DNA of 37,065 nucleotides from Roseomonas sp. GTDB lineage: Bacteria; Pseudomonadota; Alphaproteobacteria; Acetobacterales; Acetobacteraceae. Under the pieces are notes generated by a model. It was given only the letters and a program-made list of their open reading frames with translations, searched no databases and was not told the DNA's origin. Both the position numbers and the translations under genes were made by a program. Shown in pieces: positions 843 through 22,753 of the stretch; the stretch's first letter is position 1, and each line of letters opens with the position of its first letter. Where the stretch lies: positions 1 to 37,065 of the forward strand of contig JADCEX010000199.1 of the NCBI GenBank assembly GCA_020249825.1, given 5' to 3'.

Positions 843-879
843 AGCTGCACAGCCACAGCGGCATGAATGATTGCATAGT

Positions 880-912
880 CCAGGGATCATCGCGATCCCT
901 GGCGCTTTATTG
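880..912 (+). terminator. Probable intrinsic terminator after the DUF3489 gene
   Basis: A perfect 9-bp stem (CCAGGGATC at 880-888 pairing with GATCCCTGG at 894-902) closes a 5-nt loop and is followed by CGCTTTATTG. The T run is short, so termination is plausible rather than certain. It lies 38 bp past the DUF3489 stop codon and ahead of the next gene. Confidence 0.5.
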
Positions 913-969
913 CCTTGGCTCACGCGAAACACAGCGCGAAGCGTCCGTCACGCAAGACGGAGAGTGACG

Positions 970-1257
970 ATGCACGCAGAAACTGAAACTCGCTGGATCG
1001 TGCTGGGCACGGATGGGCGGCATGTTTCCCTTGGACGCACGGAACCAAGCGAGGCGGAAGTGAAGGCCGCCAGCGACGCTCTTGTCGCGCAGGGGCTTTC
1101 CGGATGGCTGGCACACATACAAGGCGAATACTACAGCCGGAGCAAGCTGACGCTGGAACCGCTGCGCATGTTGGGCTCAACGCCCGAGGCTGATTGGCAA
1201 GCCGCACTGACCGCCTTCCACGCTATGCGCCGCGACGCCATAGGCTGGAAGCCGTAG
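970..1257 (+). CDS. Small conserved-looking hypothetical protein (95 aa)
   Basis: I do not recognise this protein. It starts with a beta-like stretch ([16 protein letters not shown]), then a helix beginning [17 protein letters not shown], a G-W-L-A motif, and a region with [14 protein letters not shown]. There is no signal peptide or membrane segment. An upstream in-frame start at 871 exists, but ATG 970 is preceded by GGAGAG at a good distance and begins the protein-like part, so I use 970. The stop codon at 1255-1257 lies exactly at the point where sequence from the split ptxA gene begins. The last two or three codons may therefore have been altered by the rearrangement, although the length looks natural. 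Confidence 0.65.
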
Positions 1258-1589
1258 GAGGCCAGCAACAGCGGGTCGGCATTGCCCGCGCATTGGTGCA
1301 GCAGCCCAGATTGATCCTGGCTGATGAGCCGGTGGCGAGCCTTGATCCCGCAACTGCGGAGCGCGTGCTTACCCTGCTGCATGGCATTTGTCGTGCGGAT
1401 GGGCTGACTGCCGTGGTTTCGCTCCATCAGCTCGATTTCGCGCGCCGCTTTGGTGAACGCATCATTGGCTTGGCGGCTGGACGGATTGTGTTCGATGGGC
1501 CGCCAGACCGGCTGGATGATGCAGCCGCAGCCCGTCTCTATGGCGCCCCGACGCTGGGCAACCCTATCCGTGAGGAGGTATTCGCATGA
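1257..1589 (+). pseudogene. ptxA: C-terminal part of phosphite/phosphonate ABC transporter ATPase (ptxA/phnC), cut off from its N-terminus
   Basis: The open frame from 1257 encodes about 110 residues. They begin in the ABC signature ([13 protein letters not shown]), continue through Walker B (LILADEP) with the D-loop ASLDP, and the switch histidine (SLHQ), and end in the usual PhnC C-terminus. The Walker A half is missing. Upstream codons (an open frame is present from 1194) belong to the neighbouring unrelated gene in another frame. There is no plausible start at 1257. The stop overlaps the ptxB start (ATGA), which is the ordinary operon arrangement. The missing 151 codons are found at 19323-19793 on the minus strand. 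As it stands, the fragment cannot bind or hydrolyse ATP. Confidence 0.9.
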
Positions 1590-2446
1590 AACGCCGCAGC
1601 CTGATCGTCGGCCTGGCCACTCTTCCTGTCATGGCACAGGCCCAACCCCGCGATCCGCAGCGTTTGCGCGTTGCCCTGCTACCAGATGAAAATGCCAGCA
1701 CCATCATTCAGAATGCGCAGCCGCTGCGCGCGCATCTGGAACGCGCACTGTCAAAGCAGGTAGAGATCGTGGTTACCACAGATTACTCTTCCATGATCGA
1801 AGCCATGCGCTTTGGCCGTATTGAGGTGGCCTATTTCGGCCCCTTCTCCTACGTGCTGGCCAAGTCGCGCGCCCCAGGGATAGAGCCTTTCGCAGTTGGC
1901 GTTGAGCGCGGCTCCCCAACCTATCAGAGCGTGATGATTGCGCAGGCTGGCGGTCCGGTGCGCGAATTGGCGGATATTCGCGGGCGGCCCTTCGGGTTTG
2001 GGGATCAGGCTTCCACCTCCTCACACCTGGTGCCGCGTGCCACAATCCTGCAGCGCGCTAGCCTCGTTGGGGGTCGCGATTACCGTGTTGTTCATCTCGG
2101 CACCCATGATGCCGTGGCGCGTGCGGTCCAAGGCGGGCAGGTACCTGCCGGCGCTCTTTCCAAGCCCATTTTGGATACGCTGATCCGACGCGGCACCATA
2201 GACGCTGCGCGTATCGTTGAAATTGGGCTTTCCGAACCCATTCCGAATTACCCAATGGTCCTGCAAGGCAATCTGGCGGAGCCTTTGAAGGCCGCCATCC
2301 GCGCCGCCTTCATTGAGCTGCGTGATGCTGAGGTTTTGCGCAGCTTCCGTGTTGAAGGCTTCGCGCCGACAAATGACGAAGCTTATAATGTACTACGTGA
2401 GACAGCACGCCTGCTTGAACTCGATTTGTCGCAGATGCGCGGATGA
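1586..2446 (+). CDS. ptxB: Phosphite/phosphonate ABC transporter periplasmic binding protein PtxB (PhnD family)
   Basis: This 286-residue PhnD-family protein begins with a short signal sequence ([21 protein letters not shown]; cleavage probably near residue 20). It carries the family landmarks: a [13 protein letters not shown] segment, [10 protein letters not shown], and the ligand-loop motif [14 protein letters not shown], which resembles PtxB more than the DPNSTSG form of AEP-type PhnD. The start is set by a strong GAGGAGG leader, and the ATG overlaps the stop of the ptxA fragment. It is followed with overlaps by ptxC and ptxD, so the expected ligand is phosphite. It should work in the periplasm, delivering ligand to PtxC. 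Because ptxA is broken, its partner ATPase is uncertain. The family is certain; the ligand is inferred from ptxD. Confidence 0.88.
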
Positions 2447-3240
2447 ACCCCTCGCAGGATAGCATTCTTCAGGCTGATCGGGCCGCATTGGTCAGCCGCA
2501 CCGGTTTGGTTGGGGTAATCCTGATCATTGCCTGTGGTGCGCTTGCGCTGACCGGCTTCTTTGATCTGCAGCGCTTCGCGGAAGGCATGCCTGCGCTCGG
2601 CCAGCTTTTCTCCGAAATGATGCCGCCGGATTTCTCCCGCTGGCGAGATTGGCTCAATCCGCTGCTGGATACGCTCGCCATGTCCATTGCGGGCACGGCT
2701 TTGGCGGTGGTGATTTCTCTGCCACTTGGTTTGCTGGCGGCGCCCAATATCTCGCCCCACCCGGTGATCCTGATGGTCGCCCGTACCTTATTGGCCTTTT
2801 TACGCTCCGTGCCTGAATTGATCATGGGCATTCTTTTTGTGGCCGCGGTTGGTTTTGGCGCCTTGCCAGGTGTTCTGGCGCTTGGCCTTCATTCGGTGGG
2901 CATGGTTGGCAAGTTTTATGCTGAGGCGATTGAACATGCTGACCCCAGGCCAATCGAAGCGGCACGGGCCGCTGGCGCTTCGCCGCTCCAGGTCATCACT
3001 CACGCGGTACTGCCGCAGGTTCTTCCGCAGCTTGCTGATGTGACGATTTACCGTTGGGAATATCACTTTCGTGCTTCCACCGTGCTTGGCATTGTTGGCG
3101 CGGGAGGCATTGGCTTTCAGCTTATCGCGGCGTTGCGCCTGCTGGACTACGCGCAGGTTTCGGCCATTTTGCTGGCTATTCTGGCCTGCGTATTGGTGGT
3201 GGATGCCGTGGGTGCGGCGCTGAGACGGAGATTGAAATGA
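2443..3240 (+). CDS. ptxC: Phosphite/phosphonate ABC transporter permease PtxC (PhnE family)
   Basis: The product is a 265-residue integral inner-membrane protein. It has hydrophobic spans near residues 20-45, 80-105, 115-145 and 215-260, and an EAA-type coupling loop (AEAIEHADPRPIEAARAAGASP) that would contact the ATPase. The C-terminal STVLGIVGAGGIGFQL motif is characteristic of PhnE permeases. Its ATG overlaps the ptxB stop by four bases and its own stop overlaps the ptxD start (ATGA), so the three genes are translationally coupled. In ptxABCD operons this subunit forms the membrane channel for phosphite. Length matches the family. With ptxA split, the channel would need an ATPase encoded elsewhere. 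Confidence 0.88.
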   Translation: MNPSQDSILQADRAALVSRTGLVGVILIIACGALALTGFFDLQRFAEGMPALGQLFSEMMPPDFSRWRDWLNPLLDTLAMSIAGTALAVVISLPLGLLAAPNISPHPVILMVARTLLAFLRSVPELIMGILFVAAVGFGALPGVLALGLHSVGMVGKFYAEAIEHADPRPIEAARAAGASPLQVITHAVLPQVLPQLADVTIYRWEYHFRASTVLGIVGAGGIGFQLIAALRLLDYAQVSAILLAILACVLVVDAVGAALRRRLK

Positions 3241-4202
3241 CTGCCCGCATCATTGCCACAGCGCGGATTTTCCCCGCGACGCGTGCCCTGCTGGAACGCG
3301 CTGGCCCGGTCGCCCATCCCACTGGTGATGAACCTTGGGACAATGCCGCCTTGCGTGGTGCTTTGGCCGAGGCAGAGGCCATGATGGCCTTCATGACAGA
3401 CCGTGTGGATGCGGAGCTTTTGAAGGCTGCGCCCAAGCTGCGGGTTCTGGCCTGCGCGCTGAAGGGGGCCGATAATATTGATATCGCGGCCTGCGAAGCG
3501 CGCGGTATCGCGGTTTCCATCGTACCTGATCTGCTCACTTCCCCCACTGCCGAACTCGCCATTGGTCTTGCGATTGGCCTGGCGAGGCATATCCGCGCTG
3601 GGGACGCGGCAGTGCGTGCGGATTTTCGCGGCTGGCGTCCGAAATTCTATGGGCTCGGCTTGGACGGCGCAAAGGTGACGATCCTTGGGCTTGGGCGGCT
3701 CGGGCGCGCCATTGCCATGCGGTTGATGCCCTTTGGCTGCCAACTGCGCGGTGTTGACCCTGTGAATGATGTTCCTGGTGTTGAGCGCATGCCGCTGGAA
3801 CAGGCCTTGCACGGGGCAGATTTGGTCATCGCTGCCCTGCCGCTCACAGCAGAGACACGAATCCTCGTTGGCGCTTCCGCCATTGCCTGCCTGCCCAAGG
3901 GCGCGCTTTTGGTGAATATTGGCCGCGGTTCCACCGTGGATGAAATGGCCGTGGCTGAAGCGCTGCAAACCGGGCGATTGGGCGGCTATGCGGCGGATGT
4001 CTTTGCGATGGAGGATTGGGCCCTGCCTGACCGCCCCCGCGCCATTCCTCGCGCATTGCTTGATCATCCGCGGAGCTTATTCACACCGCATCTTGGTTCA
4101 GCAACGCTTGCCGCGCGTCAGGCAATTGAGGCCGAAGCGGCTCTCAATATCCTTGCCGGTCTTGGTGTCTCATTGCGGGAATTAAGTTCAGCTACGGCTT
4201 AG
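3237..4202 (+). CDS. ptxD: Phosphite dehydrogenase PtxD
   Basis: This is a 321-residue D-2-hydroxyacid-dehydrogenase-type enzyme closely resembling PtxD, which oxidises phosphite to phosphate with NAD+. The N-terminal third aligns without gaps to the Pseudomonas stutzeri enzyme as I remember it (shared MMAFM, RVDA, CALKG, VPDLLT, PTAELAIGLA). The PtxD active-site residues have counterparts: Met53, Lys76, Trp133, Tyr138, Arg230, Glu259, His285 and Ser288. The nucleotide fold has GLGRLG at 151-156, with Asp174 at the end of the next strand favouring NAD+ over NADP+. The residue before Arg230 is Gly rather than Cys. The ATG at 3237 overlaps the ptxC stop; a longer in-frame reading from 3054 lies inside ptxC and is rejected. 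A generic hydroxyacid dehydrogenase is the alternative, but context and motifs strongly favour PtxD. Confidence 0.92.
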   Translation: MTARIIATARIFPATRALLERAGPVAHPTGDEPWDNAALRGALAEAEAMMAFMTDRVDAELLKAAPKLRVLACALKGADNIDIAACEARGIAVSIVPDLLTSPTAELAIGLAIGLARHIRAGDAAVRADFRGWRPKFYGLGLDGAKVTILGLGRLGRAIAMRLMPFGCQLRGVDPVNDVPGVERMPLEQALHGADLVIAALPLTAETRILVGASAIACLPKGALLVNIGRGSTVDEMAVAEALQTGRLGGYAADVFAMEDWALPDRPRAIPRALLDHPRSLFTPHLGSATLAARQAIEAEAALNILAGLGVSLRELSSATA

Positions 4203-4299
4203 AGCGATTGCAAACCAAGCTCGCGCGCCAAATGACCACGCCTCCCTATTTCCGGCGCACATGAAAATTCGGCAATAATCTTCGGCATGTCAGGTTAAG

Positions 4300-4328
4300 A
4301 CGTCATCAATATTACGCATAATCGTCAT
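4300..4328 (+). promoter_or_regulatory. Weak candidate Pho box before pehA
   Basis: The 182-bp gap between ptxD and pehA holds ACGTCAT (4300-4306) and TCGTCAT (4322-4328), exactly 22 nt apart. The repeat expected between them (4311-4317) is degenerate. The phasing fits PhoB repeats, and the site is about 57 bp upstream of the pehA start. It would make pehA and the following transporter a separate Pho-controlled unit, but the match is weak. Confidence 0.35.
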
Positions 4329-4384
4329 GCAGCTGAAAATCTCAACCGTTATCGGATCATCGAGATTGAATTCAAGGCGATCCG

Positions 4385-5923
4385 ATGGCTCCCCCAAAAA
4401 ATGTCCTGCTTATTGTTGTTGATCAATGGCGTGCGGATTTTGTTCCGCATCTAGGCGCAGATTTTCTACGTACCCCGAACCTTGATCGCCTATGCCGCGA
4501 AGGGGTTACCTTCCGCAATCACGTCACGAACGCAGTCCCTTGTGGGCCGGCGCGGGCAAGCCTGCTCACGGGGCTTTACTTGATGAATCATCGTGCCGTG
4601 CAGAATACGGTTCCGCTTGATGCGCGCCACACTAACCTTGCCAAGCAATTGCGGTTGCTTGGTTATGATCCCGCCCTGATCGGTTACACGACTTCCACGC
4701 CAGACCCGCGCACTTCCGGCCCGCGCGATCCGCGTTTCACAACGCTTGGCGATTTGATGGATGGTTTCCGCAGCGTTGGCGCCTTTGAACCGAGCATGGA
4801 TGGCTATTTCGGGTGGCTCGCGCATCAAGGATACAAGCTTCCGCCGCGCAGGGAGGATATATGGCTGCCGGAAGGTGAGGATGCTGTCCCCGGTGTCACA
4901 GACCGGCCCTGCCGTATCCCGGCCGAATTGTCTGACAGCACCTATTTCACCGAAAGGGCGCTGACCTACCTGAAGGGCTGCAATGGTAAGCCTTGGTTCC
5001 TGCATCTTGGTTATTATCGCCCGCACCCGCCTTTCATCGCGCCGGCGCCCTATCACAAGATGTACCGTCCAGAGGACATGCCGGCACCCATGCGCAAGCC
5101 GCATTGGGAGGAGGAGGCGACCCAGCACCCGCTGCTGCGGCACTATTTGCGCGACATAAAGCAGGGTTCCTTCTTCCACGGTGCCGGCGGTACGGCGAGC
5201 ACGCTGGATGAGGCTTCCATCGGCCAAATGCGCGCAACCTATGCTGGGTTGATTACCGAAATTGATGATTGCCTTGGCCGTGTCTTCACCTGGTTGGAGG
5301 AGAATGGGCAATGGGAAAACACCATGATCATTTTCACCTCAGATCATGGTGAGCACTTGGGCGATCATTGGTTGCTCGGCAAGGTCGGTTATTTTGATGA
5401 AAGCTTCCGCATACCGCTGGTGATCAAGGATGCAGGGCGGAATACCCGCGCGGGTGCCATTGAAGAAGCCTTCACCGAAAGCGTGGATGTCATGCCCACC
5501 ATCCTGGAAGCGCTTGGCGGTGCCGCGCCGCGTTCCAGTGATGGGCATTCATTGCTTCCGTTGCTGGAGCATCTGCCGAGTGAGGCTTGGCGCGATATAT
5601 TGTTCTATGAGTATGATTTTAGGGACGTACACTACTCAAAACCAGAAAGCGCCCTTGGACTTTCCATGGATGATTCCTCATTGTGCGTCGTGCAGGATGC
5701 ACATTACAAATATGTTCATTTTGCCGCGCTGCCGCCCCTTTTCTTCGACCTGAAGCGTGATCCGCAGCAATTCACGAACCTCGCGGATGATCCGGATCAC
5801 GCGGATCTCGTAAAGGCCTATGCGCAAAAGGCTTTGTCTAAGCGGATGCGCCATGCCGAACGCACACTGACGCATTATCGCGCCACACCGCTCGGCCTTG
5901 AAGAACGTAAGCCCCCGGTCTGA
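4385..5923 (+). CDS. pehA: Phosphonate monoester hydrolase / phosphodiesterase (PehA, sulfatase fold)
   Basis: This 512-residue alkaline-phosphatase-superfamily enzyme is near-identical in layout to PehA of Burkholderia caryophylli and the Rhizobium phosphonate monoester hydrolase. The sulfatase signature CGPAR (Cys53-Arg57) marks the cysteine converted to formylglycine. The known active-site set appears at a constant offset of four from the Rhizobium numbering I recall: Asn74, Tyr101, Thr103, His214, Asp320, His321 and Lys333, plus metal ligand Asp13. It hydrolyses phosphonate monoesters and phosphate diesters. A formylglycine-generating enzyme must exist elsewhere in the genome. There is no signal peptide, so it is probably cytoplasmic, which fits the importer genes directly downstream. 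It would release free phosphonates or alcohols from imported esters. Confidence 0.93.
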   Translation: MAPPKNVLLIVVDQWRADFVPHLGADFLRTPNLDRLCREGVTFRNHVTNAVPCGPARASLLTGLYLMNHRAVQNTVPLDARHTNLAKQLRLLGYDPALIGYTTSTPDPRTSGPRDPRFTTLGDLMDGFRSVGAFEPSMDGYFGWLAHQGYKLPPRREDIWLPEGEDAVPGVTDRPCRIPAELSDSTYFTERALTYLKGCNGKPWFLHLGYYRPHPPFIAPAPYHKMYRPEDMPAPMRKPHWEEEATQHPLLRHYLRDIKQGSFFHGAGGTASTLDEASIGQMRATYAGLITEIDDCLGRVFTWLEENGQWENTMIIFTSDHGEHLGDHWLLGKVGYFDESFRIPLVIKDAGRNTRAGAIEEAFTESVDVMPTILEALGGAAPRSSDGHSLLPLLEHLPSEAWRDILFYEYDFRDVHYSKPESALGLSMDDSSLCVVQDAHYKYVHFAALPPLFFDLKRDPQQFTNLADDPDHADLVKAYAQKALSKRMRHAERTLTHYRATPLGLEERKPPV

Positions 5924-5966
5924 CCCGCCCGTCACACCCATTAATCATCATCGCAGGAGAACCCCC

Positions 5967-7586
5967 ATGCTGCGCCGTGAACTTCTTGCCCTTCCGGGCT
6001 TGGCCTTATTGCCTCGTTTCGCAATTGCCCAATCGGATCAGCGCCCTTCGATAACGATCGCTGTGCAGAAAATCGTCAATAGCAATACCTTGGAGGTGTT
6101 GCGCGAACAGTCCAACGTAGGTGAGCGTATCTTCTTCACCTCACTTTGGGAAGGACTGCTGGGACGGAATTGGCTCGGTAATCTCGAGACAATGCCTGGC
6201 CTCGCCACGGAATGGCGCCGTATCGATGATCGCACGGTTGAGCTTTCACTCCGCCGCGGTGTGATATTCCACAACGGCGATGAGATGACTGCCGAAGATG
6301 TGGCATTCACCTTCGGGCCTGAGCGTATGTTCGGGACCGGCACGCCTGCTACCCCTGCCGGCGGTACACTTTTCACGCGCATTCCTGGTCAAGGGCCGCA
6401 AGGCAAGGAGCTTCCGCCCGAAGTAGTAGCGGTATCTCGGCGCATCTGGCCGGCTCTTGAAAGGGTTGAAGTGGTTGATCGTTACACCGTGCGCTTCGTA
6501 AACCGGACGCCGGATGTAACAATGGAAGGGCGGCTTGCCCGGTATGGCAGTGACATCTGCTCACGCCGCGGCTTTAACGAGGCCGCCAGCTGGCTTGATT
6601 GGGCGCGTAAGCCTATCACCACTGGGCCATATATGGTGGCGGAATTCCGCCCTGATGTCTCGCTGACGCTGGTGGCGCATGATCAATATTGGGGTGGACG
6701 CCCGCCCTTGCGGCAAATCCGCTTTGTTGAAGTGCCGGAAGTTGCCTCACGCCTGAATGGCTTACTGTCGGGCGAATATCAATTCGCCTGCGACATGCCG
6801 CCTGACCAAATTTCCGGCATTGAACGTAACCGTGCCTTTGAAGTGCAGGGCGGGACTATTCTGAACCATCGCCTTACCGTGTTTGACAAGAACCACCCCC
6901 AGCTACGTGATGCGCGGATCAGGCGCGCCATGACGCATGCCATTGATCGGCAGGCGATTGTTGACAGTCTTTGGGCTGGCCGCACCGTTGTGCCGAAGGG
7001 TCTGCAATGGGAATATTACGGTGATATGTTCCATGCGGATTGGGCAGTGCCCGCCTTCAATCTGAATGAGGCGCGGCGCCTGTTGCGTGAGGCGAATTAC
7101 CGCGGTGACCCGATCCCCTATCGCCTGCTGAACAACTACTACACCAACCAGAACGCCACAGCCCAAGTGCTGGTTGAAATGTGGCGCCAGGCTGGGATCA
7201 ATGTTCAAATCGAAATGCGTGAGAATTGGGCGCAGATCTTCTCCCGCGAAACCCCGCGTGCGTTGCGTGATTGGTCCAATAGCGCGCCCTTTAATGATCC
7301 TGTCTCCTCCATCGTGAACCAACATGGTCCAAGCGGTCAGCAGCAGCAGGTCGGCGAATGGACGAACGAGGAATTCAACCGCCTATCGGCTGAACTTGAA
7401 ACCAGCACGGATCGTCCGCGCCGCCGCGCCGCCTTCCGTCGAATGCTGGAGATTGCTGAACGCGAAGATCCTGCCTTCACCGTGCTGCATCAGAACGCGA
7501 CCTTCACCGCCAAGCGGCGCGATACACGCTGGAAGGCAAGCCCGGCCTTCGCCATGGATTTCCGGCCTGGCAATTGGGGGGGTTAA
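5967..7586 (+). CDS. Family-5 (dipeptide/nickel type) ABC transporter substrate-binding protein
   Basis: The 539-residue product has an N-terminal export signal (MLRRELLALPGLALLPRFAIAQ, cleavage after about residue 21) and the SBP_bac_5 pattern. Landmarks include PGLATEWRRIDDRTVELSLRRG, a NGDEMTAEDVAFTF segment, IRRAMTHAIDRQAIVD, and YRLLNNYYTNQ. The chosen ATG is preceded by CAGGAGA; an in-frame start at 5898 lies inside pehA. It is the intact binding protein of the transporter encoded by the next genes. Its ligand cannot be read from the sequence. Position directly after pehA suggests a phosphonate ester or phosphonate-containing small molecule instead of peptides, which is inference only. 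Confidence 0.85.
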   Translation: MLRRELLALPGLALLPRFAIAQSDQRPSITIAVQKIVNSNTLEVLREQSNVGERIFFTSLWEGLLGRNWLGNLETMPGLATEWRRIDDRTVELSLRRGVIFHNGDEMTAEDVAFTFGPERMFGTGTPATPAGGTLFTRIPGQGPQGKELPPEVVAVSRRIWPALERVEVVDRYTVRFVNRTPDVTMEGRLARYGSDICSRRGFNEAASWLDWARKPITTGPYMVAEFRPDVSLTLVAHDQYWGGRPPLRQIRFVEVPEVASRLNGLLSGEYQFACDMPPDQISGIERNRAFEVQGGTILNHRLTVFDKNHPQLRDARIRRAMTHAIDRQAIVDSLWAGRTVVPKGLQWEYYGDMFHADWAVPAFNLNEARRLLREANYRGDPIPYRLLNNYYTNQNATAQVLVEMWRQAGINVQIEMRENWAQIFSRETPRALRDWSNSAPFNDPVSSIVNQHGPSGQQQQVGEWTNEEFNRLSAELETSTDRPRRRAAFRRMLEIAEREDPAFTVLHQNATFTAKRRDTRWKASPAFAMDFRPGNWGG

Positions 7587-7590
7587 GGCC

Positions 7591-8699
7591 ATGTTGCGTC
7601 GTCGTAGTTTTCTCGCCACTCCCGCCACCCTGTTGGGGGCGCCACTTGCCACGCCCGCCTTGGCGCAAGCTGATACGCGCCCAACACTTACCATCGCGGT
7701 TCAGCGGCTTTCCAATTCAAATACCTTTGAACCGCCGCGTGAACAATCCAATGTCGGCTTCCGCATTCACGGTCTTTACGCCGAACAGTTAATCGCAACC
7801 GATTGGCTGGGGAATGCCGCGCTGACGCCCGGGCTTGCCACTTCCTGGCGGCGCGTTGATGCGCGCACCCTTGATCTGACGCTGCGGCAAGGCGTGAAGT
7901 TCCATGATGGCAGCATTCTCACCGCGGAGGATATCGCCTTCTCCTTTGCGGATCGCCTGTTTGGTACACAAGGGGCGACGGGCGCTGGCCGCACCACGAT
8001 CCTCGCCGGGACAGCGACCAAGGAACCGCCCGCCGAGGTGATTGCCATTGGGCGCCGCACCTACTGGTGGATGCGCTTTGGGCGGGTCGCACCAAAATCC
8101 CGCGCGGTATGCAAATGGAAAGCTACGGCCAGATGTTCCTGGCCGATTGGGAGAATCCCCGCTTTGATCCCGCCGAGGCGCGGCGCCTGCTGCGTGAGGC
8201 GAATTATCGCGGCCAGCCTATCCCTTATCGGCTGTTGAACAATTACTACACCAATCAGGTGGCGAATGCGCAGATCATGGTGGAGATGTGGCGCGCAGTT
8301 GGCATCAACGTCGTGATCGAAATGAAAGAAAACTTCGCGCAGGTGACGGAACGCACACCTGGCCGCGGCGTGCGCGACTGGTCCAACACTTCCGTCTTTG
8401 GCGATCCAGTAGCAGGGCTTCTCCGTAGCTTTGGACCCAATACTGAGGCAGAACGTACTGGCGAATGGGCCAGCGAGGCCTTCAACCAAGCTTCAACCGC
8501 GCTTGAGTCTGAAACTGACCTAAACCGCCGACGTGAGCTTTTCCGCCGTGTTCTGACCATCGTGGAGCGGGAAGACCCCGGCTATATCACCTTGCACCAC
8601 GCTGCGGCCTTTACCGCCAAAAGGCGCAATATCGAATGGCGCGCTTCTTCTGGCTGGGCGATGATGTTTGGCCCCGGAAATTTGCGTGTGGGCGCATGA
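7591..8699 (+). pseudogene. Second family-5 substrate-binding protein gene, broken by an internal deletion with frameshift
   Basis: From ATG 7591 the reading frame gives a signal peptide and about 155 residues closely matching the preceding gene (PTLTIAVQRLSNSNTFEPPR, then EQSNVGFRIHG). Near 8062 the similarity jumps: the frame continuing from 8067 (VDALWAGRTKIPRG) matches residues about 331 onward of the intact neighbour and runs to its C-terminus at 8699. About 170 codons, roughly 510-520 bp, are missing, and the two parts are in different frames. The gene was evidently a tandem duplicate that lost its middle. Either fragment alone lacks a complete ligand-binding fold. The 3' end still overlaps the next gene (ATGA), preserving operon structure. 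Confidence 0.9.
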
Positions 8700-11615: not shown

Positions 11616-11616
11616 T

Positions 11617-12495
11617 ATGCCGGAAGCTCCCCTTGTGATTACTGCCCCAACAGCGCCCACCAAAGCGCGGCGGAAAGCCCCGCCGGCCTTGGTGGTTTTC
11701 GGCATTGGCTGGCTGATGCTGATGCTTGTCGTTGCGCTGCTCGCGGATATCTTGGCGCCTTACGCCTATACGGCGCTTGATCTTCGCAATCGTCTTTCCC
11801 CACCCATCCTGCTTGGCGGCACTTGGCTTCATCCGCTCGGCACTGATGAGCTTGGGCGGGATGTGCTGTCGCGGCTTATCTATTCCATCCGCACAAGCCT
11901 ATTGATCGCCTTCGGTGCCACCATCATCGGGGCGGCTGTCGGTACGTCCCTTGGCTTCCTGGCGGCGCATTTCAGAGGGTTTATCGAACAGGCAGTGCTG
12001 GCGCTGGTGGATTTCTCCGCCTCGCTCCCCTTCCTGATTTTAGCGTTGGCGGTGCTGGCGTTTTTCGGTAATTCGCTGCTGCTGCTGGTTTGCCTTCTGG
12101 GGCTGCATGCCTGGGAAAGATATGCGCGTATTGCGCGCGGGCTTGCGCTTGCCGCCGGCACGCAAGGCTATGCGGCCGCGGTGCGGGGGCTTGGGGCGTC
12201 TCCATGGCGCATCTATGGGCGGCATGTCTTGCCCAATATCGCCTCGACACTCATTGTTTCCATGACGCTCGCCTTTCCGGAAGTGATCCTGCTTGAGTCC
12301 GGACTTTCCTTCCTTGGCCTGGGCGTGCAGCCACCAGAGACATCGCTTGGTTCAATGGTCGGCTATGGGCGGGAATATTTGACGCGGGCGCCCTGGATTC
12401 TACTGGCACCCGCCAGCACGATTGTGCTGACCACTCTCTCAGTTTCGCTGATTGGTGATTGGCTACGTGATGGGCTTGACCCGACGCTGCGGTGA
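11617..12495 (+). CDS. Dipeptide-type ABC transporter permease (DppC/OppC-like)
   Basis: The 292-residue membrane protein starts at ATG 11617, one base after the DppB-like stop; an in-frame start at 11551 would overlap that gene and is unlikely. An N-terminal cytoplasmic tail leads into the first span (VVFGIGWLMLMLVVALLADI). The DppC hallmark GTDELGRDVLSRLIYSIRTS and the EAA loop (AAVRGLGASPWRIYGRHVLPN) are present, ending with IGDWLRDGLDPTLR as in family members. It completes the five-component importer that begins at 5967 and closes the plus-strand operon. Confidence 0.88.
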   Translation: MPEAPLVITAPTAPTKARRKAPPALVVFGIGWLMLMLVVALLADILAPYAYTALDLRNRLSPPILLGGTWLHPLGTDELGRDVLSRLIYSIRTSLLIAFGATIIGAAVGTSLGFLAAHFRGFIEQAVLALVDFSASLPFLILALAVLAFFGNSLLLLVCLLGLHAWERYARIARGLALAAGTQGYAAAVRGLGASPWRIYGRHVLPNIASTLIVSMTLAFPEVILLESGLSFLGLGVQPPETSLGSMVGYGREYLTRAPWILLAPASTIVLTTLSVSLIGDWLRDGLDPTLR

Positions 12496-12510
12496 GGGGA
12501 TTCACCGCAG
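12487..12510. terminator. Hairpin between convergent operons, overlapping a stop codon
   Basis: A perfect 9-bp inverted repeat (CTGCGGTGA at 12487-12495, TCACCGCAG at 12502-12510) with a 6-nt loop sits on the end of the DppC-like gene and includes its stop codon. Two operons converge here. No clear T tract follows on either strand, so it may act as a Rho-assisted or bidirectional stop or as an mRNA 3'-end stabiliser. Confidence 0.45.
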
Positions 12511-12532
12511 CCGTTAGTGCTGAGCGCGAGTA

Positions 12533-13954
12533 CTAGCGCCGGCGCATCGCAGTTGGGTAAAGCCGCCCGTTTTCTGACCGCATGGCTTCAAGGACGAAAT
12601 CGCCCGGCAGATCGTGCAATTCTTCGCTGGGTGGAAGGTCTGCCGCGGCATCCAAAGCGCCGCGCAATGGGCGCCCTTCCATGCCGGAAGGGTCAACCCC
12701 CAGCATATGCAGAACCGTCGGCACGATGTCCGTCAAGTCAGCAGGTTCTTGGATCACCGAACCCTGACGGAAGGGGCCACCCTGCATCACCAGCACGGTC
12801 GCAAGCTCCGCACGATGCAGGCCGCCATGCATACCGCCGCCTTCTGGGACATCAGGTGCATCGAAGGGGGCCGTGCCTGGCAGGCCCCATTCATCCAAGC
12901 CTTCTTCGCCCGCGAATGTCGCGACCAGATCGGCGCTGCGCGTATGGGCTGAGCCCAGCAGTGCAAGCGGCGCCGCCCGCCCCGGAGAGAGGATGGCAGG
13001 ATCACGCGCCAATAAAGGACCAGCCCAATGTTGTGTGGCCAGGAAATCCGCCACCTGAGAGGCAAAGGATGGGTCTCTCAGCCAAAGCCCAGGCGCCGCC
13101 GCTGGCGCAACAACAATATCCACATCCGGCGCCATGCCGGTGCCAGCACGGAAGCCGGCGCGCTGCAATTCGCTCCGCAGGCACTTCTTGCCCCGGCCGG
13201 TAACATGGCCATGGTCTGAGAGAACGATAATTGCGATTTCCTTCGCATCTGGCTGCGCATCACGCCAGGTGATGATTTGCCCAAGCACCGCATCTGCCGA
13301 TTTAAGCGCGTGTTGCGTATGTTCAGCCCGCAAGCCACCCCAATGGAAGGATACGTCCGGTTCTGACAGCCACAGCAGCGCCACATCCGGTTTCACTCGG
13401 GGCAGCACGTGTTCAAGCAAAACGCGTCCGGCAAATTCAACCCGCGCGATATTCGGTACGGCAGCGGGCGGCGTCTCGCCAAGCGCTGAAACCACGCGCT
13501 GCGCTGTCTCGCCCTCAGTATCCTCGACATTCCAACGAAAGGCGCCAAGCCGCTCTGCCGCCGGGTGAAGCAGCCGGGCCGCCCCCGCCGTACCGGCGCT
13601 GACCAGGGCGAAACTCATTCCATGCGGTGCCAGGCGCTCCGCCAAGCTGGCACGTTGCAAAGGCGATTCCGCACCGGCGGCGAGGGTGACAACATCCTCA
13701 ACCAGCTTGGTCCGGATCAAACGATCGCGTGCCACCGATGCGTCGAACAGCGTATTGGCGACCAAGCCATGGCCCCCAGGGCGGCAGCCTGTGATGAGCG
13801 ATGGCGTTGCCACCCGCGTTTCAGAGGGGAACACACTCCGTGCCCGCAAAAAGCGCGCGCCCGCCATACCAAGCGCATGCAAATGAGGGGTCGCCACAGG
13901 ATCCACCATATCGGGTCGCAGCCCATCCAAGGCGACCATAATTACGCTTGTCAT
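12533..13954 (-). CDS. Alkaline-phosphatase-superfamily phosphodiesterase / nucleotide pyrophosphatase-like enzyme
   Basis: This 473-residue protein belongs to the type I phosphodiesterase/nucleotide-pyrophosphatase branch (PF01663-like). The first metal ligand is Asp10 in MVALDGLRPD. The likely nucleophile is Thr46 in FPSETRVATPS. Further metal-ligand motifs are LSEPDVSFH, LSDHGH and the late HGGLHRAE. No signal peptide is apparent, so it probably acts in the cytoplasm on imported substrate. ATG 13954 has GGGAG at good spacing. It is the last gene of the minus-strand cluster after a ugp-like transporter and a metallophosphoesterase, suggesting it cleaves imported phosphodiesters. Phosphonoacetate hydrolase (PhnA) lies in the same superfamily and cannot be excluded from sequence alone. 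Confidence 0.78.
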   Translation of the reverse strand: MTSVIMVALDGLRPDMVDPVATPHLHALGMAGARFLRARSVFPSETRVATPSLITGCRPGGHGLVANTLFDASVARDRLIRTKLVEDVVTLAAGAESPLQRASLAERLAPHGMSFALVSAGTAGAARLLHPAAERLGAFRWNVEDTEGETAQRVVSALGETPPAAVPNIARVEFAGRVLLEHVLPRVKPDVALLWLSEPDVSFHWGGLRAEHTQHALKSADAVLGQIITWRDAQPDAKEIAIIVLSDHGHVTGRGKKCLRSELQRAGFRAGTGMAPDVDIVVAPAAAPGLWLRDPSFASQVADFLATQHWAGPLLARDPAILSPGRAAPLALLGSAHTRSADLVATFAGEEGLDEWGLPGTAPFDAPDVPEGGGMHGGLHRAELATVLVMQGGPFRQGSVIQEPADLTDIVPTVLHMLGVDPSGMEGRPLRGALDAAADLPPSEELHDLPGDFVLEAMRSENGRLYPTAMRRR

Positions 13955-14072
13955 GTCATTCTCCCAAAGGTCAGCGGCGCGTGAGGTAGGAAGCCAAAAT
14001 TCTCAGCTTGTGTCAGCCGCTTTTACGATATTCGACGTGTTTTCATGCGCCAAGAAGCGCCACAACAGCGCT

Positions 14073-14900
14073 TCAGGACGTGGCGCGAGGATAAGTCAGA
14101 TGGCGGATAGGGCCAAGATAAGGCACTTCCATACCATCCGGTTCCAGCAGAACCGTCTCCACGTGATCCTCATGCAAATGATGCAGTAAGGCACCGCAAC
14201 GCCGCGCCCCGGGCAGGCCTTGCTGCTCATCCTCCTCAACCACAAAGGAAAGCGGTGGCGCCCAGACGAAGGATACGGCGTCTCGCTTGAATTCATGATG
14301 CAGGTGCAAATGACCAGAGGCGACCAACCGAAGCCCTGGATGCTCCAGTAACGGCATCAAGGTGTTCCGCGCATGCGGAGGTACAGACCAATAATCAAAA
14401 ACTGGATCGTCGGGATGCGTTATGAAGATTGGCTTATGCAGAAAAACTGCCAAGCGCCGAGCCTCCGCGCTTTCAAGCGCTTCGATGATGAAGCGTGCTT
14501 GGGCGTCTTCCTCCGGATGCCCCGTGCCCATGACCTCCGAATTGAGGCCAATGACGCGCCAGCCCGGCAGATCATGCAGACCATAGCCCGTACCCAAATA
14601 TTGCTGGAACCTAGTCAGCCGGGTGGCATCAAAGGGCTGACGGGGCATGGTATGCGGGTGACTGCCCGTATCATGATTTCCGGGCAGCGCCAGAAATGGG
14701 CCGGGGAAGCGGCCTAATTCTTCGGCGGCGAAAGCCATATCCGCATCATGATCCGCGCCATCCAGCGAAAGATCACCGCTTGCAACGGTAAGATCGGGCG
14801 GGGTTGCCGCCGCCAGGGCGTGAATCAGGGCGACATTACCGCGGAATAATTCATTCCGCGGCGAAAGATGCGCATCAGTAATCTGAAGGATCGTTTGCAT
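14073..14900 (-). CDS. Cyclic-nucleotide/glycerophosphodiester-type metallophosphoesterase
   Basis: The 275-residue calcineurin-like phosphoesterase carries all the class III phosphodiesterase metal motifs: D-A-H at 9-11 (ITDAHLS), GD at 42-43 (VASGDLSLDG), GNHD at 74-77, a histidine in VFLHKPIF, and GHLHLHH near 195-201. Relatives include GpdQ glycerophosphodiesterase and CpdA cAMP phosphodiesterase. It starts three bases from the stop of the upstream binding-protein gene, so it is co-transcribed with the ugp-like transporter. A role in opening glycerophosphodiesters to glycerol-3-phosphate, or in stripping phosphate from them, is the most natural reading. No signal peptide is seen, implying a cytoplasmic location. 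Confidence 0.82.
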   Translation of the reverse strand: MQTILQITDAHLSPRNELFRGNVALIHALAAATPPDLTVASGDLSLDGADHDADMAFAAEELGRFPGPFLALPGNHDTGSHPHTMPRQPFDATRLTRFQQYLGTGYGLHDLPGWRVIGLNSEVMGTGHPEEDAQARFIIEALESAEARRLAVFLHKPIFITHPDDPVFDYWSVPPHARNTLMPLLEHPGLRLVASGHLHLHHEFKRDAVSFVWAPPLSFVVEEDEQQGLPGARRCGALLHHLHEDHVETVLLEPDGMEVPYLGPIRHLTYPRATS

Positions 14901-14903
14901 ATT

Positions 14904-16184
14904 TCAGCCCCGGCGAGGCAGCAGACGGCGAACTTCGCTGGCCATATCGGCCAAAGCCACTTCGGGGGTCGCATTCCCTTCGACAACACGGGCCATGTTA
15001 TTCACCATCACTTCGGTCACACGAACGCTATTGGTGCCTGGGAACGCATACCATGGCACCATGCGGCCCACCTGCATGGTCGCAGTCTTGAACAGTGGAT
15101 TTTCGCGATAGAATTCCGAAAGATAACGTGGATCATCAATGGCAAGCTGGTTCGTCGGCACATAGCCGGTGTTCTTGACCATTAGCGTCGTTCCTTCTGC
15201 GCTTGTCGAAAAGCGCAGGAACCTCCAGGCAGCCTCCCGCTTCGCTGCATCACGCGCGGTCAGCATCCCGGCGGCACCGCCCGTAGGCAGGCGGCCATTC
15301 ACCGGGTCAACAACAGGCAATAGCGCGGTCTGCATTTCAAAGTTCCGCCCAACGCTGTTCATCATATTGCGCAGGAAGGCGGTGGAGCCAAAGCGCATGC
15401 CAAGCTTGCCGGCGGCAAACGCTTGCAGAGCCGTGGTGCCATTCAGTTGCGGCATGCCCCCTTCGGTCACCATGCGGCGGAGCAAGCGTAGGCTGGCAAG
15501 GCCTTCGGCACCTGCAAAGCCAACATCGCGTTCATCTGGTGTCAGCATGCGCGCACCATGGCTAAACAGCAGCGCGGAAAACATCCAGTCATCGCCCGGC
15601 CACTGGAACCACATGCCTTCAGTACCATCGCCAAGCGCCTTGATGCGCGCTGAAAGCGCAATGACCTCATCCCAGGTTTTTGGGAAGGCTTCGGGGGCAG
15701 GATTGGCACCAACGCGGCGAAGCAGTTCGGTATTATAATAGGAAATCGCATTGGATGCGGCATAGGCCAGCCCCGATTGCATGCCGCCGAAATGGCCAAG
15801 GGCAAGTATGCCAGGGGTATAGCCATGGGCCGCCGGATTACCCTCACGCGCAAGCAAAGGCGCCAGATCCTGGGCGATGCCGCGCTCGGCGAATACCCGC
15901 AGGCGATTGAAGCCCTGATAGGAAAGATCGGGCAATTGATTGGCAGCGGCCTGGCGGAGGATAAGCTGATTGCCTTCCTCATAATTCGGCGTGGTGATGA
16001 AGCGAACCGTCACATTGGGTTCGCGCTTGGCGAATTCCGCCGCGATCGCGTCATAGCTTTCCTTGAAGATTTGCGGCTGGGCGTAATGCACCGTGATGTC
16101 CACATTGGACTGAGCGCGCAGTTGTGGTGCGCTGAGCAAGCCGGCTGTGACGCCCAAGGCCGTGCGACGGGTAAATGGCTTCAT
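14904..16184 (-). CDS. ugpB: UgpB-like ABC transporter substrate-binding protein
   Basis: This is a 426-residue family-1 extracellular solute-binding protein. A twin-arginine-containing signal (MKPFTRRTALGVTAGLLSAPQLRAQ) precedes the mature chain. Typical features are FKESYDAIAAEFAKREPNVTV, TWDEVIALSARIKAL, a GWxxQ-like tract reading WFQWPGDDWMF, and FLRFSTSAEGTTLMVKNTGYVPT near the C-terminus, which resembles the UgpB family. ATG 16184 has AAGGAA upstream; the longer frame to 16259 would overlap ugpE. Glycerol-3-phosphate or a glycerophosphodiester is the suggested ligand, based on the two phosphodiesterase genes that follow. A sugar ligand remains possible. The symbol is given by similarity and context. 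Confidence 0.72.
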   Translation of the reverse strand: MKPFTRRTALGVTAGLLSAPQLRAQSNVDITVHYAQPQIFKESYDAIAAEFAKREPNVTVRFITTPNYEEGNQLILRQAAANQLPDLSYQGFNRLRVFAERGIAQDLAPLLAREGNPAAHGYTPGILALGHFGGMQSGLAYAASNAISYYNTELLRRVGANPAPEAFPKTWDEVIALSARIKALGDGTEGMWFQWPGDDWMFSALLFSHGARMLTPDERDVGFAGAEGLASLRLLRRMVTEGGMPQLNGTTALQAFAAGKLGMRFGSTAFLRNMMNSVGRNFEMQTALLPVVDPVNGRLPTGGAAGMLTARDAAKREAAWRFLRFSTSAEGTTLMVKNTGYVPTNQLAIDDPRYLSEFYRENPLFKTATMQVGRMVPWYAFPGTNSVRVTEVMVNNMARVVEGNATPEVALADMASEVRRLLPRRG

Positions 16185-16255
16185 GGTCCGATTCCTTTCG
16201 GTTTTTGGAAAAATGGAAACATCTGGTGATAGGTGAGTGATCATGCCGCGCATGG

Positions 16256-17098
16256 TCATCCCTTCAGCCCGGTTGTGGCGATGCCTTCAACGAAGCGCCG
16301 TTGTGCAAAAAGGAATGCCAGAACAAGAGGCAGTGTCATGATGACGGCAGCCGCCATCAATGCGGCAAAATCATCGCCTGCCTCGTCTGAACGGAAATAC
16401 AAGACGCCAAGCGCCGGGGTGGCGCGTGCCTGCCCTTCAATCACAATTAGCGGCCAGAAAAGATCATTCCAATGCGCGACGACAGAGAAAATCGCAAAGG
16501 CGGTGGCTGCCGGCCAGGCATTCGGCAGGATCACGCGCCAAACGATTTCAAACTCACCGATCCCATCAAGGCGTGCCGCATGAACCAGTTCATCGGGCAG
16601 CGCCTTGAAGAACTGACGGAATAGAAAGATCGCAAAGACTGAAATAGTGAAGGGCAGGATCAGCGCGGCATAGGTATTCAAGAGACCTGTTTTGCTAAAG
16701 GCCAAGTAGAGCGGGAGCGCCGGCACATGGGGCGGCACAAGAAGGCCAAGCATAACAAGGCCAAGGGCCAGATCACGCCCGGGGAAGCGAAGCTTCGCGA
16801 GCGCATAGGCTGCCGGAACGGCGAAAAGTAGCTGGAAGAAAAGTATGCCACCGCATACAACAATACCATTCCAGAGATAGCCAAATACTGGAATCTGCGA
16901 AAACACCTTCCCGTAATTCTCAATGCCGTGAAAGCGTTCTGGCCAGAGAATAAGGCTGGCACGAAACAACTCATCCAGTGGCTTTACGCTTGCTGAGATC
17001 ATCCAGATATAAGGCATGAGCAGCAATAGCGCGAGGCAGCCTAGCACAAGCAGGCGCGGCGCATCCGCCCAAAGCGATTTCGCGCCGCGCTCAGCCAT
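16256..17098 (-). CDS. ugpE: UgpE-like ABC transporter permease
   Basis: The 280-residue inner-membrane protein of the MalG/UgpE type has hydrophobic spans around residues 13-33, 75-100, 107-130, 140-160, 185-205 and 240-262. The EAA loop (ELVHAARLDGIGEFEIVWRVILPNAWPA) is a clear match to sugar/G3P permeases. The C-terminus RRFVEGIATTGLKG is the usual ending for this family. It overlaps the ugpA-like gene by eight bases and is separated from the ugpB-like gene by 71 bp, in the order C-A-E-B. It forms one half of the channel. Confidence 0.8.
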   Translation of the reverse strand: MAERGAKSLWADAPRLLVLGCLALLLLMPYIWMISASVKPLDELFRASLILWPERFHGIENYGKVFSQIPVFGYLWNGIVVCGGILFFQLLFAVPAAYALAKLRFPGRDLALGLVMLGLLVPPHVPALPLYLAFSKTGLLNTYAALILPFTISVFAIFLFRQFFKALPDELVHAARLDGIGEFEIVWRVILPNAWPAATAFAIFSVVAHWNDLFWPLIVIEGQARATPALGVLYFRSDEAGDDFAALMAAAVIMTLPLVLAFLFAQRRFVEGIATTGLKG

Positions 17099-18026
17099 AA
17101 TGCACCCGCTTATCCAAAGCCTTGGTTTGCAGCCAGACCAAGCCCAGAACCATCAACAGGAAAACCAGGGTGATCGCCGCAGAATATCCAAGCCGCAGAA
17201 ACGTGAAGCCTTCCTTGTACATGGTGTGCAGCAGGACTTCACTCGCCTTATTCGGCCCGCCTTGGGTCAGAACAGCGACCGTATCAAAGACCCGAATGCT
17301 ACGGATCATGGTGATGGTCAGCACGAAGAGTGTTGTGGGTCCAAGCATGGGCCAAGTGACAAGCCGAAACCGATCAAGCCAGGATTTCGTCCCGTCAACT
17401 TCAGCGGCTTGATAGAGTTCCCGCGGAATGGCGCTGAGGCCTGCCAGGAAAAGTACCATATTGTAGCCGACATTCTCCCAAACGCCGATTGCCCCGAGAC
17501 TGAGAAGTACCCAATCCGAAGATGAAAGCCAGAAGGGTGGGGCGGTAACGCCAAGAAGGCGCAAGAAGGCATTCAAAGGCCCAATCGTCGGATGCAGCAG
17601 GTATTGCCAAGCAGCTGCCATGGCGACCGTCAGTGAAACAACCGGCAGGAAGAAGACAGCGCGAAACAGGGCGCGCCCACGCATCCCCGCTTCAATTAAA
17701 AGCGCTGCGCCCAAGCCAAGCAAGATGGAAAGTGGTGTGACGAGCCCGACATAGATGACCGTATTGCGGAGGGCGATGGCAAATCCACGATCTTCCAGCA
17801 TTTCTTCAAAATTCGCGGTGCCAATCCAGCCCCACTCCAGCGCGCCCAATTCGTAATCTGTGAAGGCCAAAAGGATCGTGGCCAAGCTAGGCAATAGGAG
17901 CATCAGAAAATAAGCGATGCCTGCCGGCATGTTCAGCATAAGGCCGACCAAGGCTTCGCCACGTGTCAGGCGGCGCGATCTTCCCTGAAATGATGCAGGC
18001 TGCGCTGCAGATAAGGTTTCAGGCAA
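17091..18026 (-). CDS. ugpA: UgpA-like ABC transporter permease
   Basis: This is a MalF/UgpA-type permease of about 311 residues with spans near 27-50, 90-115, 125-150, 175-200, 220-245 and 280-303. Its EAA loop reads ELYQAAEVDGTKSWLDRFRLV. The open frame extends back to 18299, but that part overlaps the ATPase gene and is not protein-like. The best start is TTG 18026 (Met-Pro-Glu-Thr-Leu-Ser), which overlaps the ATPase stop by eight bases, the same overlap used between ugpA and ugpE. No ATG or GTG is available before the first membrane span. It pairs with the UgpE-like protein. Confidence 0.75.
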   Translation of the reverse strand: MPETLSAAQPASFQGRSRRLTRGEALVGLMLNMPAGIAYFLMLLLPSLATILLAFTDYELGALEWGWIGTANFEEMLEDRGFAIALRNTVIYVGLVTPLSILLGLGAALLIEAGMRGRALFRAVFFLPVVSLTVAMAAAWQYLLHPTIGPLNAFLRLLGVTAPPFWLSSSDWVLLSLGAIGVWENVGYNMVLFLAGLSAIPRELYQAAEVDGTKSWLDRFRLVTWPMLGPTTLFVLTITMIRSIRVFDTVAVLTQGGPNKASEVLLHTMYKEGFTFLRLGYSAAITLVFLLMVLGLVWLQTKALDKRVHYG

Positions 18027-19161
18027 GGGTAAATTCCTGACTGTGAGCAGGATGATCGTGCAGCGCGACACGTTTGCCATTCTTGTCAAACAGCAGAGCG
18101 TGCTCAGTTTCAAAGGTAAGGTGGATCGCTTCTCCAGAATGCGGCCGAGGCATTTCTGGTGGAAGCCGTACGACCAAGGCTTCATCACTGGCTGTATGAC
18201 GCGCATGGAGCAGCAAGCTTTCGCCCAGAAATTCGAAGCCTTCTGCCACGCAGGGCATACCGCTGGAGGCAAGCCGCAGATTTTCCGGACGAATGGCAAT
18301 AGTCACTGGTCCAGGCGCAGCATGAAGCCCGCTCGGCCTTCCCGCGATATGGACATGGCCTGCGGCATCGGCTTCAGCAGAGATTAAATTGATCCGTGGA
18401 CTACCGATGAAGGTCGCCACGCGGATATCCTGCGGATCGTGGTAAATCGCCTCGGGCGACGAAACCTGCAGTATCTGGCCGGCTTGCATGACGGCCACAC
18501 GGTCCGCCATGGTGAGGGCCTCAGATTGATCATGCGTCACGTAAAGTGTCGCGGCACCGACGCGGCGATGAATCTCAACAATCTCACGCCGTGTTTGCAC
18601 GCGAAGCGCCGCATCCAGATTGGAAAGCGGCTCATCCATCAGAAACGCGTCAGGATGGCGAACAATTGCCCGGGCCAATGCTACGCGTTGCCGCTGTCCG
18701 CCTGAAAGCTGCCCAGGCTTTCGATCCAGTAGCGCTTCCAGGCCGAGTGATTGGGCGGCCTTGAGGACATCGGTGGCTATGGCCGCCCGTTTTTGGGCAA
18801 GGCCAGGCATTACGCGACCAAAAAGAGGAAAACGCTCCACGGTAGAAAGCCGCCTCATGGCGAGAGGAACGGCAATGTTCTCGCTCACGGTCAGATGTGG
18901 GTAAAGCGCATAATTCTGGAATACCATCGCGACATTACGCTCAGCGGCACGCAAAGCTGTGACGTCCCTAGAACCGATGGAAAGTGAACCCGCGTCAGCG
19001 GTTTCAATACCGGCCACAATCCGCATAAGGGTCGATTTTCCGCAGCCGGAAGGGCCAACAAGGGCGACGAACTCACCTGCGGCCACGTCAAGGGAGACAT
19101 TATCAAGCGCTCTTACTGCCCCGAAATGACGCGATATGAATTTGATGGAGAGGCCATGCAC
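18019..19161 (-). CDS. ugpC: UgpC/MalK-type ABC transporter ATPase
   Basis: The 380-residue ATPase has Walker A GPSGCGKST (36-44), Q-loop FQNYALYPHLTV, signature [16 protein letters not shown], Walker B AFLMDEPLSNLDAALR and switch histidine YVTHDQSEA. A C-terminal TOBE-type regulatory domain (about 290-365, VTIAIRPENLRLA) follows. There is an insertion of about 20 residues between the Q-loop and the signature (RRLSTVERFPLFGRVMPGLA) compared with standard MalK. It is the first gene of the minus-strand cluster. In the present arrangement it lies 161 bp downstream of the truncated ptxA fragment in the same direction, so read-through from the ptxA Pho promoter is possible. Confidence 0.83.
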   Translation of the reverse strand: MHGLSIKFISRHFGAVRALDNVSLDVAAGEFVALVGPSGCGKSTLMRIVAGIETADAGSLSIGSRDVTALRAAERNVAMVFQNYALYPHLTVSENIAVPLAMRRLSTVERFPLFGRVMPGLAQKRAAIATDVLKAAQSLGLEALLDRKPGQLSGGQRQRVALARAIVRHPDAFLMDEPLSNLDAALRVQTRREIVEIHRRVGAATLYVTHDQSEALTMADRVAVMQAGQILQVSSPEAIYHDPQDIRVATFIGSPRINLISAEADAAGHVHIAGRPSGLHAAPGPVTIAIRPENLRLASSGMPCVAEGFEFLGESLLLHARHTASDEALVVRLPPEMPRPHSGEAIHLTFETEHALLFDKNGKRVALHDHPAHSQEFTLA

Positions 19162-19218
19162 GCGGAGAATTCCTGAAAGGTCGGGGCCTTTTCCTTGCAG
19201 AGGAACAATGGCAGTGGT

Positions 19219-19247
19219 GTTTCTGATTTATGATAGTTTTAAGAAGG
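19219..19247 (-). promoter_or_regulatory. Weak candidate Pho box before the ugp-like operon
   Basis: On the minus strand, CTATCAT (19236-19230) matches the PhoB 7-mer at six of seven positions. It is preceded four bases upstream by CCTTCTT and flanked by A-rich 4-nt spacers, about 69 bp upstream of the ugpC start. The third repeat is poor. It would suit a phosphate-starvation transporter but is not convincing alone. Confidence 0.3.
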
Positions 19248-19322
19248 CGAATATGGCGTGGTTGGAGGTGGTTCCGAGAAGTCGTAGTCAAATCAGTTAG
19301 TCAGGCGAAGCCGGGACGTTTA

Positions 19323-19793
19323 CTAAATGCCTTGCCCGCCCGAAAGCTGATCCGCGCGTGCAAGGGCCTTATCCAAAAGGCCAACGCGTTCCAGAGCCTC
19401 AATCGCCAGGCGCTTCTCCTGTGCATTGAACGGTAAAAGCGTGCGCAAGGCGGTATGATAGCCAAGCCGGCCCATGAGCACATTGCCGAGTACGGAGACC
19501 CTTCCGATCAGCTGGTGCTGCTGAAAGATCATACCAGTTTCGCGCCGATGGTGCCGCAAGGTCCGCCTTTCGGCGATGTACTCACCACGGCTGTCGAGGA
19601 CACGGCCTTCGGTTGGGCGAACGAGCCCATTTAGGGAACGGAGCAGGGTTGATTTACCAGCACCCGAAGCGCCCAGCAGTACGGTGAAAGAGCCCGGCTT
19701 TATGGTCAGATCCACTGGTGCCAGAGCCACCGCACCATTTGGGTAAGTTACGCTGAGCGATTGAGTTTGGATGGCGGAATTCGAAGGAAACAT
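19323..19793 (-). pseudogene. ptxA: N-terminal part of phosphite/phosphonate ABC transporter ATPase (ptxA/phnC), cut off at LSGGQ
   Basis: The frame encodes 156 residues. It begins with a normal PhnC start (SLSVTYPNGAVALAPVDL) and contains Walker A GASGAGKST (41-49) and a Q-loop (TGMIFQQHQLIGRVSVLGNVLMGRLG) highly typical of PhnC. It stops just after ALARADQLSGG, with Gln-Gly-Ile and a TAG that do not belong to the family. Walker B, D-loop and switch regions are absent, so it cannot be an active ATPase. The missing part is at 1257-1589 on the other strand; residues 1-151 plus that 110-residue piece make about 261 residues. A strong Pho box lies 34 bp upstream, so the fragment is probably transcribed during phosphate limitation. 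Confidence 0.9.
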
Positions 19794-19826
19794 GACGATC
19801 GCCTAGGCGTTCGCCATGATGGCCGT

Positions 19827-19855
19827 GTGACAGAAAAATGAAGGTTTAATGTCAC
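19827..19855 (-). promoter_or_regulatory. Pho box controlling the ptxA promoter
   Basis: Read on the minus strand, three 7-mers occur at exact 11-nt intervals: GTGACAT, CCTTCAT and CTGTCAC, separated by TAAA and TTTT. The last differs from the CTGTCAT consensus at one position. The array ends 34 bp before the ptxA start codon. The 7+4 spacing with A/T-rich spacers is the PhoB pattern. In the uninverted arrangement it would drive ptxABCD; now it drives only the ptxA fragment and possibly the ugp-like operon. Confidence 0.72.
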
Positions 19856-20157: not shown

Positions 20158-20239
20158 AATGCGGGCTCCTGGTCCGATCTGTTCGGGCGTCAGCGTCTAT
20201 CGCCTTTCTGATCCGAGACATTCAATTTTGGAGTCGGCC

Positions 20240-20839: not shown

Positions 20840-20843
20840 GGAT

Positions 20844-22749: not shown

Positions 22750-22753
22750 CGCC

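Follow-up and report, generated by a model that had tools for sequence, protein, structure and literature searches.

Why should the gene for a transporter ATPase lie in two pieces, on opposite strands and some 18 kb apart, in a genome whose relatives keep it whole? The window, that is, the whole stretch of 37,065 nucleotides analysed here (contig JADCEX010000199.1 of the Roseomonas sp. assembly GCA_020249825.1, our genome G000), contains such a gene, of the PhnC/PtxA type, cut within its LSGGQ motif. The original prediction had recognized two ATPase frames on opposite strands, and ORF and Pfam checks with alignment to the relative G034 recover both of them: a 5′ part at 19323-19793 on the minus strand (156 aa) and a 3′ part at 1257-1589 on the plus strand, which reads from GGQQQR to its stop. 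The 5′ frame, said to stop right after LSGG, in fact ends ADQLSGGQGI-stop, two residues past LSGGQ. In the Pfam profile ABC_tran the 5′ part covers positions 2-113 and the 3′ part positions 111-137, so that one domain continues from the first piece into the second. Aligned with the intact PhnC of G034, they correspond to residues 1-156 (92% identity) and 151-261 (95% identity). About 261 residues in total with no visible loss had been expected; the G034 protein has 261 aa, and no base is missing or added relative to the relatives' sites.

The arrangement can be read against other genomes. Among 99 genomes searched, our own included, the adjacent binding protein was found at E up to 1e-30 in 11; of the other ten, seven were fetched and the three weakest (G085, G048 and G046) left out. 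Closest among them are G034 (97% identity) and G024 (93%), which correspond to the Roseomonas MAG records JADCES010000007.1 and JADCFP010000014.1. G034 1-640 matches window 625-1264 on the plus strand and G034 19268-34311 matches window 19332-34400 on the plus strand, while G034 19276-12419 and 11929-639 match window 1257-8063 and 8043-19334, respectively, in inverted orientation. Identity is 92.6-92.8% in the inverted block, 92.0% in the left collinear flank (640 bases) and 88.8% in the right one (15 kb). The split therefore goes beyond chance, because the whole block between the phnC parts, and not merely both frames, is inverted relative to G034. The inverted segment spans 1265-19332 (18,068 bp, about 18.07 kb), with each end uncertain by about 8 bp owing to the short core that both breakpoints share. 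G024 has the same inner block in the G034 orientation with an uninterrupted phnC, and different DNA to the left of ugpC. The inversion proposed between the phnC parts is thus seen by comparison with G034, which has the whole segment in the opposite orientation and phnC intact, and the check suggested at the time, a search of close relatives for an uninterrupted ptx operon on one strand, is answered by G034 and G024, both of which have it.

Which arrangement is ancestral can be judged from both junctions. PhnC is uninterrupted in 7/7 of the relatives fetched. In 79 of the best 80 of 322 confirmed named loci, which include records of the fetched relatives, one PhnC alignment is continuous across LSGGQ, a comparison that speaks to continuity and is not a stop-codon test. 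In two of these 79 (L179 and L182) the N-terminal end of PhnC is cut by a contig edge, and the eightieth locus (L174) is uninformative, since its contig end leaves just 236 bases before the binding-protein gene. At the other site, the junction between a 95-aa orf (orf95) and ugpC is contiguous in G034, in G015 (C52) and in G002 (C271 and C502, two overlapping contigs). G025 and G013 have both the orf95-containing module and ugpC, separated by other sequence, and in G024 the module is absent there. Given the intact PhnC of the relatives and the adjacency of orf95 and ugpC in G034, G015 and G002, both junctions of the window are derived; the reverse view, with the G034 orientation as the derived state, is rejected by the remaining relatives. 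When window 1-1400 was compared with 35 genomes of the genus, scoring at most 11 candidates per genome, the joined form occurred, among the matches listed, only in its own genome. With all four half-sites accounted for, both window junctions derived and both ancestral junctions present elsewhere, the window carries, as far as the assembly shows, a derived and balanced inversion of about 18.07 kb.

The left flank (1-1257, plus strand) is the end of a prophage-type repeat module, with a DUF3489 orf at 75-842 (E 9.8e-23) and the 95-aa orf at 970-1257. The contig begins within this module, and its prophage-type identity is accordingly taken from a paralogue on contig C179 of the same genome, which adjoins two ParB/methyltransferase genes and a terminase small subunit. 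Parts of the module recur on seven other contigs of the genome (84-97% identity for the best piece per contig), and two more contigs have short matches at 76-78%. Copies of the DUF3489/orf95 module lie on C343, C179, C140 and C231, and the small orf has a different C-terminus in each copy aligned. Window 1200-1264 matches the corresponding site of G034 (site A) at 62/65 bases, through 1264, whereas alignments with four module copies of its own genome end at 1230-1241. This identifies the left half-site as the orthologue of the copy adjacent to ugpC.

At the left junction (1257-1264) the module match and the phnC match to G034 overlap by eight bases, such that the module side ends by 1264 at the latest and the phnC side starts by 1257. 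At the right junction (19332-19339) the comparison with G034 shows the 5′ part of phnC fused to the ugpC leader. The core common to both breakpoints is short, GGNGGNCA, and lies in inverted orientation. With the G034 alleles its identity is 7/9, which 1.0% of 400,000 random position pairs equal or exceed; the best agreement among the relatives' alleles, between the G002 site and the G034 phnC, is 8/9, reached by 0.1% of random pairs; and within the window itself the two copies agree at 6/8. On these counts the shared core is only weakly above chance, and past it the similarity of the two sites falls below that of random pairs, so that a microhomology step is suggestive only. Recombination between longer repeats was rejected, as none of 500 random pairs scored lower in local similarity than the two sites (7) and the longest inverted match between the 1.3-1.5 kb regions surrounding them is 11 bp. 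The original prediction supposed that sequence shared among ABC genes at LSGGQ had helped recombination. However, the partner breakpoint is the end of the prophage-type module beside ugpC, a site that encodes no ABC protein, and an exchange between two ABC genes is rejected. Nor was an element inserted into phnC, since the two parts lie on opposite strands, each joined to a different half of the ancestral orf95-ugpC junction.

We consider it probable that a single derived and balanced inversion of about 18.07 kb took place in the G000 lineage, most likely illegitimate and microhomology-assisted. The end of the module beside ugpC would have been joined to the 3′ part of phnC/ptxA, and its 5′ part to the ugpC leader, by an exchange within the inverted core with no base apparently lost. 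The enzymatic route that we infer, and the most likely one, would be a one-off, illegitimate, microhomology-assisted break-and-rejoin.

The two parts of phnC show little sign of age. Neither contains a frameshift or a stop. When changes are polarised with G024, both parts together carry 6 amino-acid and 10 synonymous changes on the window branch, compared with 6 and 27 on the G034 branch (Fisher p 0.17); ptxBCD on the window branch carry 11 and 44 (p 0.19 against the phnC parts). The ratio of amino-acid to synonymous changes in the phnC parts is higher on the window branch, not significantly so. With both parts in frame and without significant decay, the split looks recent relative to the divergence of the window and G034 genomes, or else reversible.

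Both a misoriented assembly and a reversible switch are less likely than a one-off inversion. An 18-kb contig placed in the wrong orientation, in an organism whose phnC is intact, would fit the conservation of both phnC parts. G000 is moreover a draft of 420 contigs (7.8% estimated contamination), and one breakpoint abuts a repeat family, the kind of place at which assemblies break. However, the window contains no N or ambiguous bases, neither junction has a gap, the two are reciprocal to the base, and the phnC breakpoint region, searched with window 19100-19900, has a single match in its own genome. The shared core is also far below the overlap length that assemblers normally need, and we regard such an artefact as improbable. 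That the prophage's own recombinase acted, treating the end of the module like an attachment site and phnC as a secondary target, appears more doubtful still. The exchange is conservative and one breakpoint falls within about 10 bp of the module end, as this would predict, yet the four copies compared in the same genome end at differing sequences, and no integrase was found among the proteins scanned around the C179 copy (6 + 6). In G013, by eye, the module near ugpC continues into the apparent start of the next module gene, so that its ugpC-side end looks like a deletion scar and not like an attachment site.

Least probable of the three is that a site-specific recombinase flips the segment reversibly and thereby toggles phosphite uptake and a ugp-like operon. 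The segment does join two phosphorus-uptake operons, the exchange is conservative, and the lack of significant decay in the phnC parts would be expected. Nevertheless, apart from the short imperfect core, inverted repeats were not found at its ends, and no recombinase, invertase or integrase domain was detected among 20 window proteins scanned with Pfam, where the contig start cuts the module. The unsplit form prevails in the relatives (7/7 fetched, and 79 of the best 80 of 322 named loci), and in the assembly, which has one match to the phnC 5′ region, no second orientation of the segment was found. Were it true, one orientation would give a working phosphite operon, and the other would break that operon and couple the ugp-like operon to its Pho-type leader. 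An 18-kb reversible switch in a phosphorus-scavenging island, with near-zero identity between its sites, strikes us as highly improbable. The one-off inversion is the reading adopted below.

Downstream of the 3′ part, on the plus strand, lie a ptxB/phnD-type binding protein (1586-2446; Phosphonate-bd E 3.4e-66; TIGR01098 above its cut-off, the PhnD equivalog TIGR03431 under its cut-off), a ptxC/phnE-type permease (2443-3240; TIGR01097 295.5 bits, cut-off 216.7) and ptxD (3234-4202). Pfam and NCBIfam together place a PhnD-family binding protein and a PhnE-family permease beside ptxD. The predicted product of ptxD belongs to the phosphite dehydrogenase type: in a phmmer search against solved structures its best relatives are phosphite dehydrogenases (E 1.8e-86), the best other hit being a glyoxylate reductase (1.6e-43), and no NCBIfam model reached its cut-off. 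PMC5700983 describes ptxABCD as genes of phosphite uptake and oxidation. ATPase, binding protein, permease and PtxD stand together there, as they do in the G034 and G024 orthologues; in contrast, the window's operon lacks an intact ATPase gene at its head, the gene being in two pieces.

By the established anatomy of ABC ATPases, the 5′ product is left without the Walker B region and the 3′ product without Walker A. Loss of the split ATPase is therefore the expected effect, and the inversion would inactivate ptxA. At E up to 1e-20 the genome yields 45 matches to ABC ATPases, including the two phnC parts. Loss of every other PhnC-type ATPase is not supported, for two further PhnC-like ATPases (46% and 52% identity) are intact, on C114 and C348, each in an apparently complete phn operon by eye. 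These might serve the split ptx operon in trans.

The ugp-like operon (14904-19161, minus strand) comprises an ATPase (18022-19161) and a binding protein (14907-16190), both recognized by Pfam, with UgpC and UgpB as the best NCBIfam names below their cut-offs, and two permease orfs identified by eye. It now shares a strand with the 5′ part of phnC. Upstream of that part (19816-19855, minus strand), a scan with the Pho-box consensus finds 11-bp-spaced Pho-box-like repeats, with mismatches at 3/14 positions in the window, 2/14 in G034 and 3/14 in G024; what had been called a strong Pho box is better described as a fair one. In the window, 10 Pho-box-like sites occur at up to 3 mismatches versus 2.5 expected, and the best of all (23767-23784, 1 mismatch) belongs to a second PhnD gene (23851). 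The ugpC leader (19162-19332, minus strand) has a weak Pho-like repeat, CCTTCTTAAAACTATCAT, with 4/14 mismatches (4-5 in the 6 relatives aligned). As 35 of 74,096 window positions score at up to 4 mismatches and 154 at up to 5, this site alone is weak evidence. The ugp-like operon was predicted to have come under a Pho promoter, and it does now lie downstream of one; however, it has kept its own leader with the weaker repeat. Transcription of ugp may, to judge from this layout, be extended from the phnC leader, and ptxBCD, now separated from that leader, would have lost it.

The surroundings also deserve mention. Window 1586-34323 resembles a phosphorus-scavenging island, with the ptx genes, the ugp-like operon, a second phn transporter, sulfatase-type and phosphodiesterase-type genes, a phytase-like esterase and a further ABC transporter with a HAD hydrolase and an FAD oxidoreductase (2-aminoethylphosphonate type, by eye). 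The second transporter (PhnD-PhnE-PhnE, 23851-26389) has no adjoining PhnC-type ATPase and may borrow one from elsewhere. Directly upstream of its PhnD gene, G024 (C46, locus L061, 25022-26889) has an IS21-type IstA/IstB pair, by eye, that is absent in the window. Within the inverted segment a second short-repeat rearrangement, at 8043-8063, has cost the window about 0.5 kb that both G034 and G024 possess. Of two tandem solute-binding-protein genes, the second is thereby broken: it is a single long frame in both relatives (629 codons in G034, 691 in G024), and in the window it is represented by two overlapping frames (7318-8235 and 7908-8696). A PIN-domain protein (34511-34930) is possibly the toxin of a toxin-antitoxin pair with a small orf at 34927-35244, by eye. 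RNA family (gathering threshold) and tRNA scans of the window were both empty.

The inversion is ordinary in kind and well documented at base level. A Salmonella chemostat study (PMC3411829) reports spontaneous inversions with short inverted homologous sequences at their endpoints, as here, counted apart from site-specific flagellar inversions. However, the cut-off deduced there for true inversions is at least 12 bp of microhomology, while here the core extends to no more than 8/9 bases and what is observed is a genome in its assembled state. Inversions driven by mobile elements (PMC12863080) likewise have a breakpoint at a repeat family derived from such an element, but no module copy lies at our second breakpoint, and the event is thus not recombination between two element copies. 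Invertons and phase-variable inversions (PMC11868660 and PMC11892184) similarly alter a gene or its expression; in contrast, the present segment lacks inverted repeats, and neither a recombinase among the proteins scanned nor a second orientation was detected. Among the papers listed by literature searches, none deals with this locus.

The locus thus offers a base-level case of a conservative, gene-cutting inversion with neither a repeat nor a mobile-element copy at both ends. As close relatives keep the ancestral state, its age, mechanism and effect are all testable. For the organism, the inversion leaves the ugp-like operon downstream of a truncated phnC and of a second Pho-type leader, and a survey based on ptxD alone would wrongly score it as intact for phosphite uptake.
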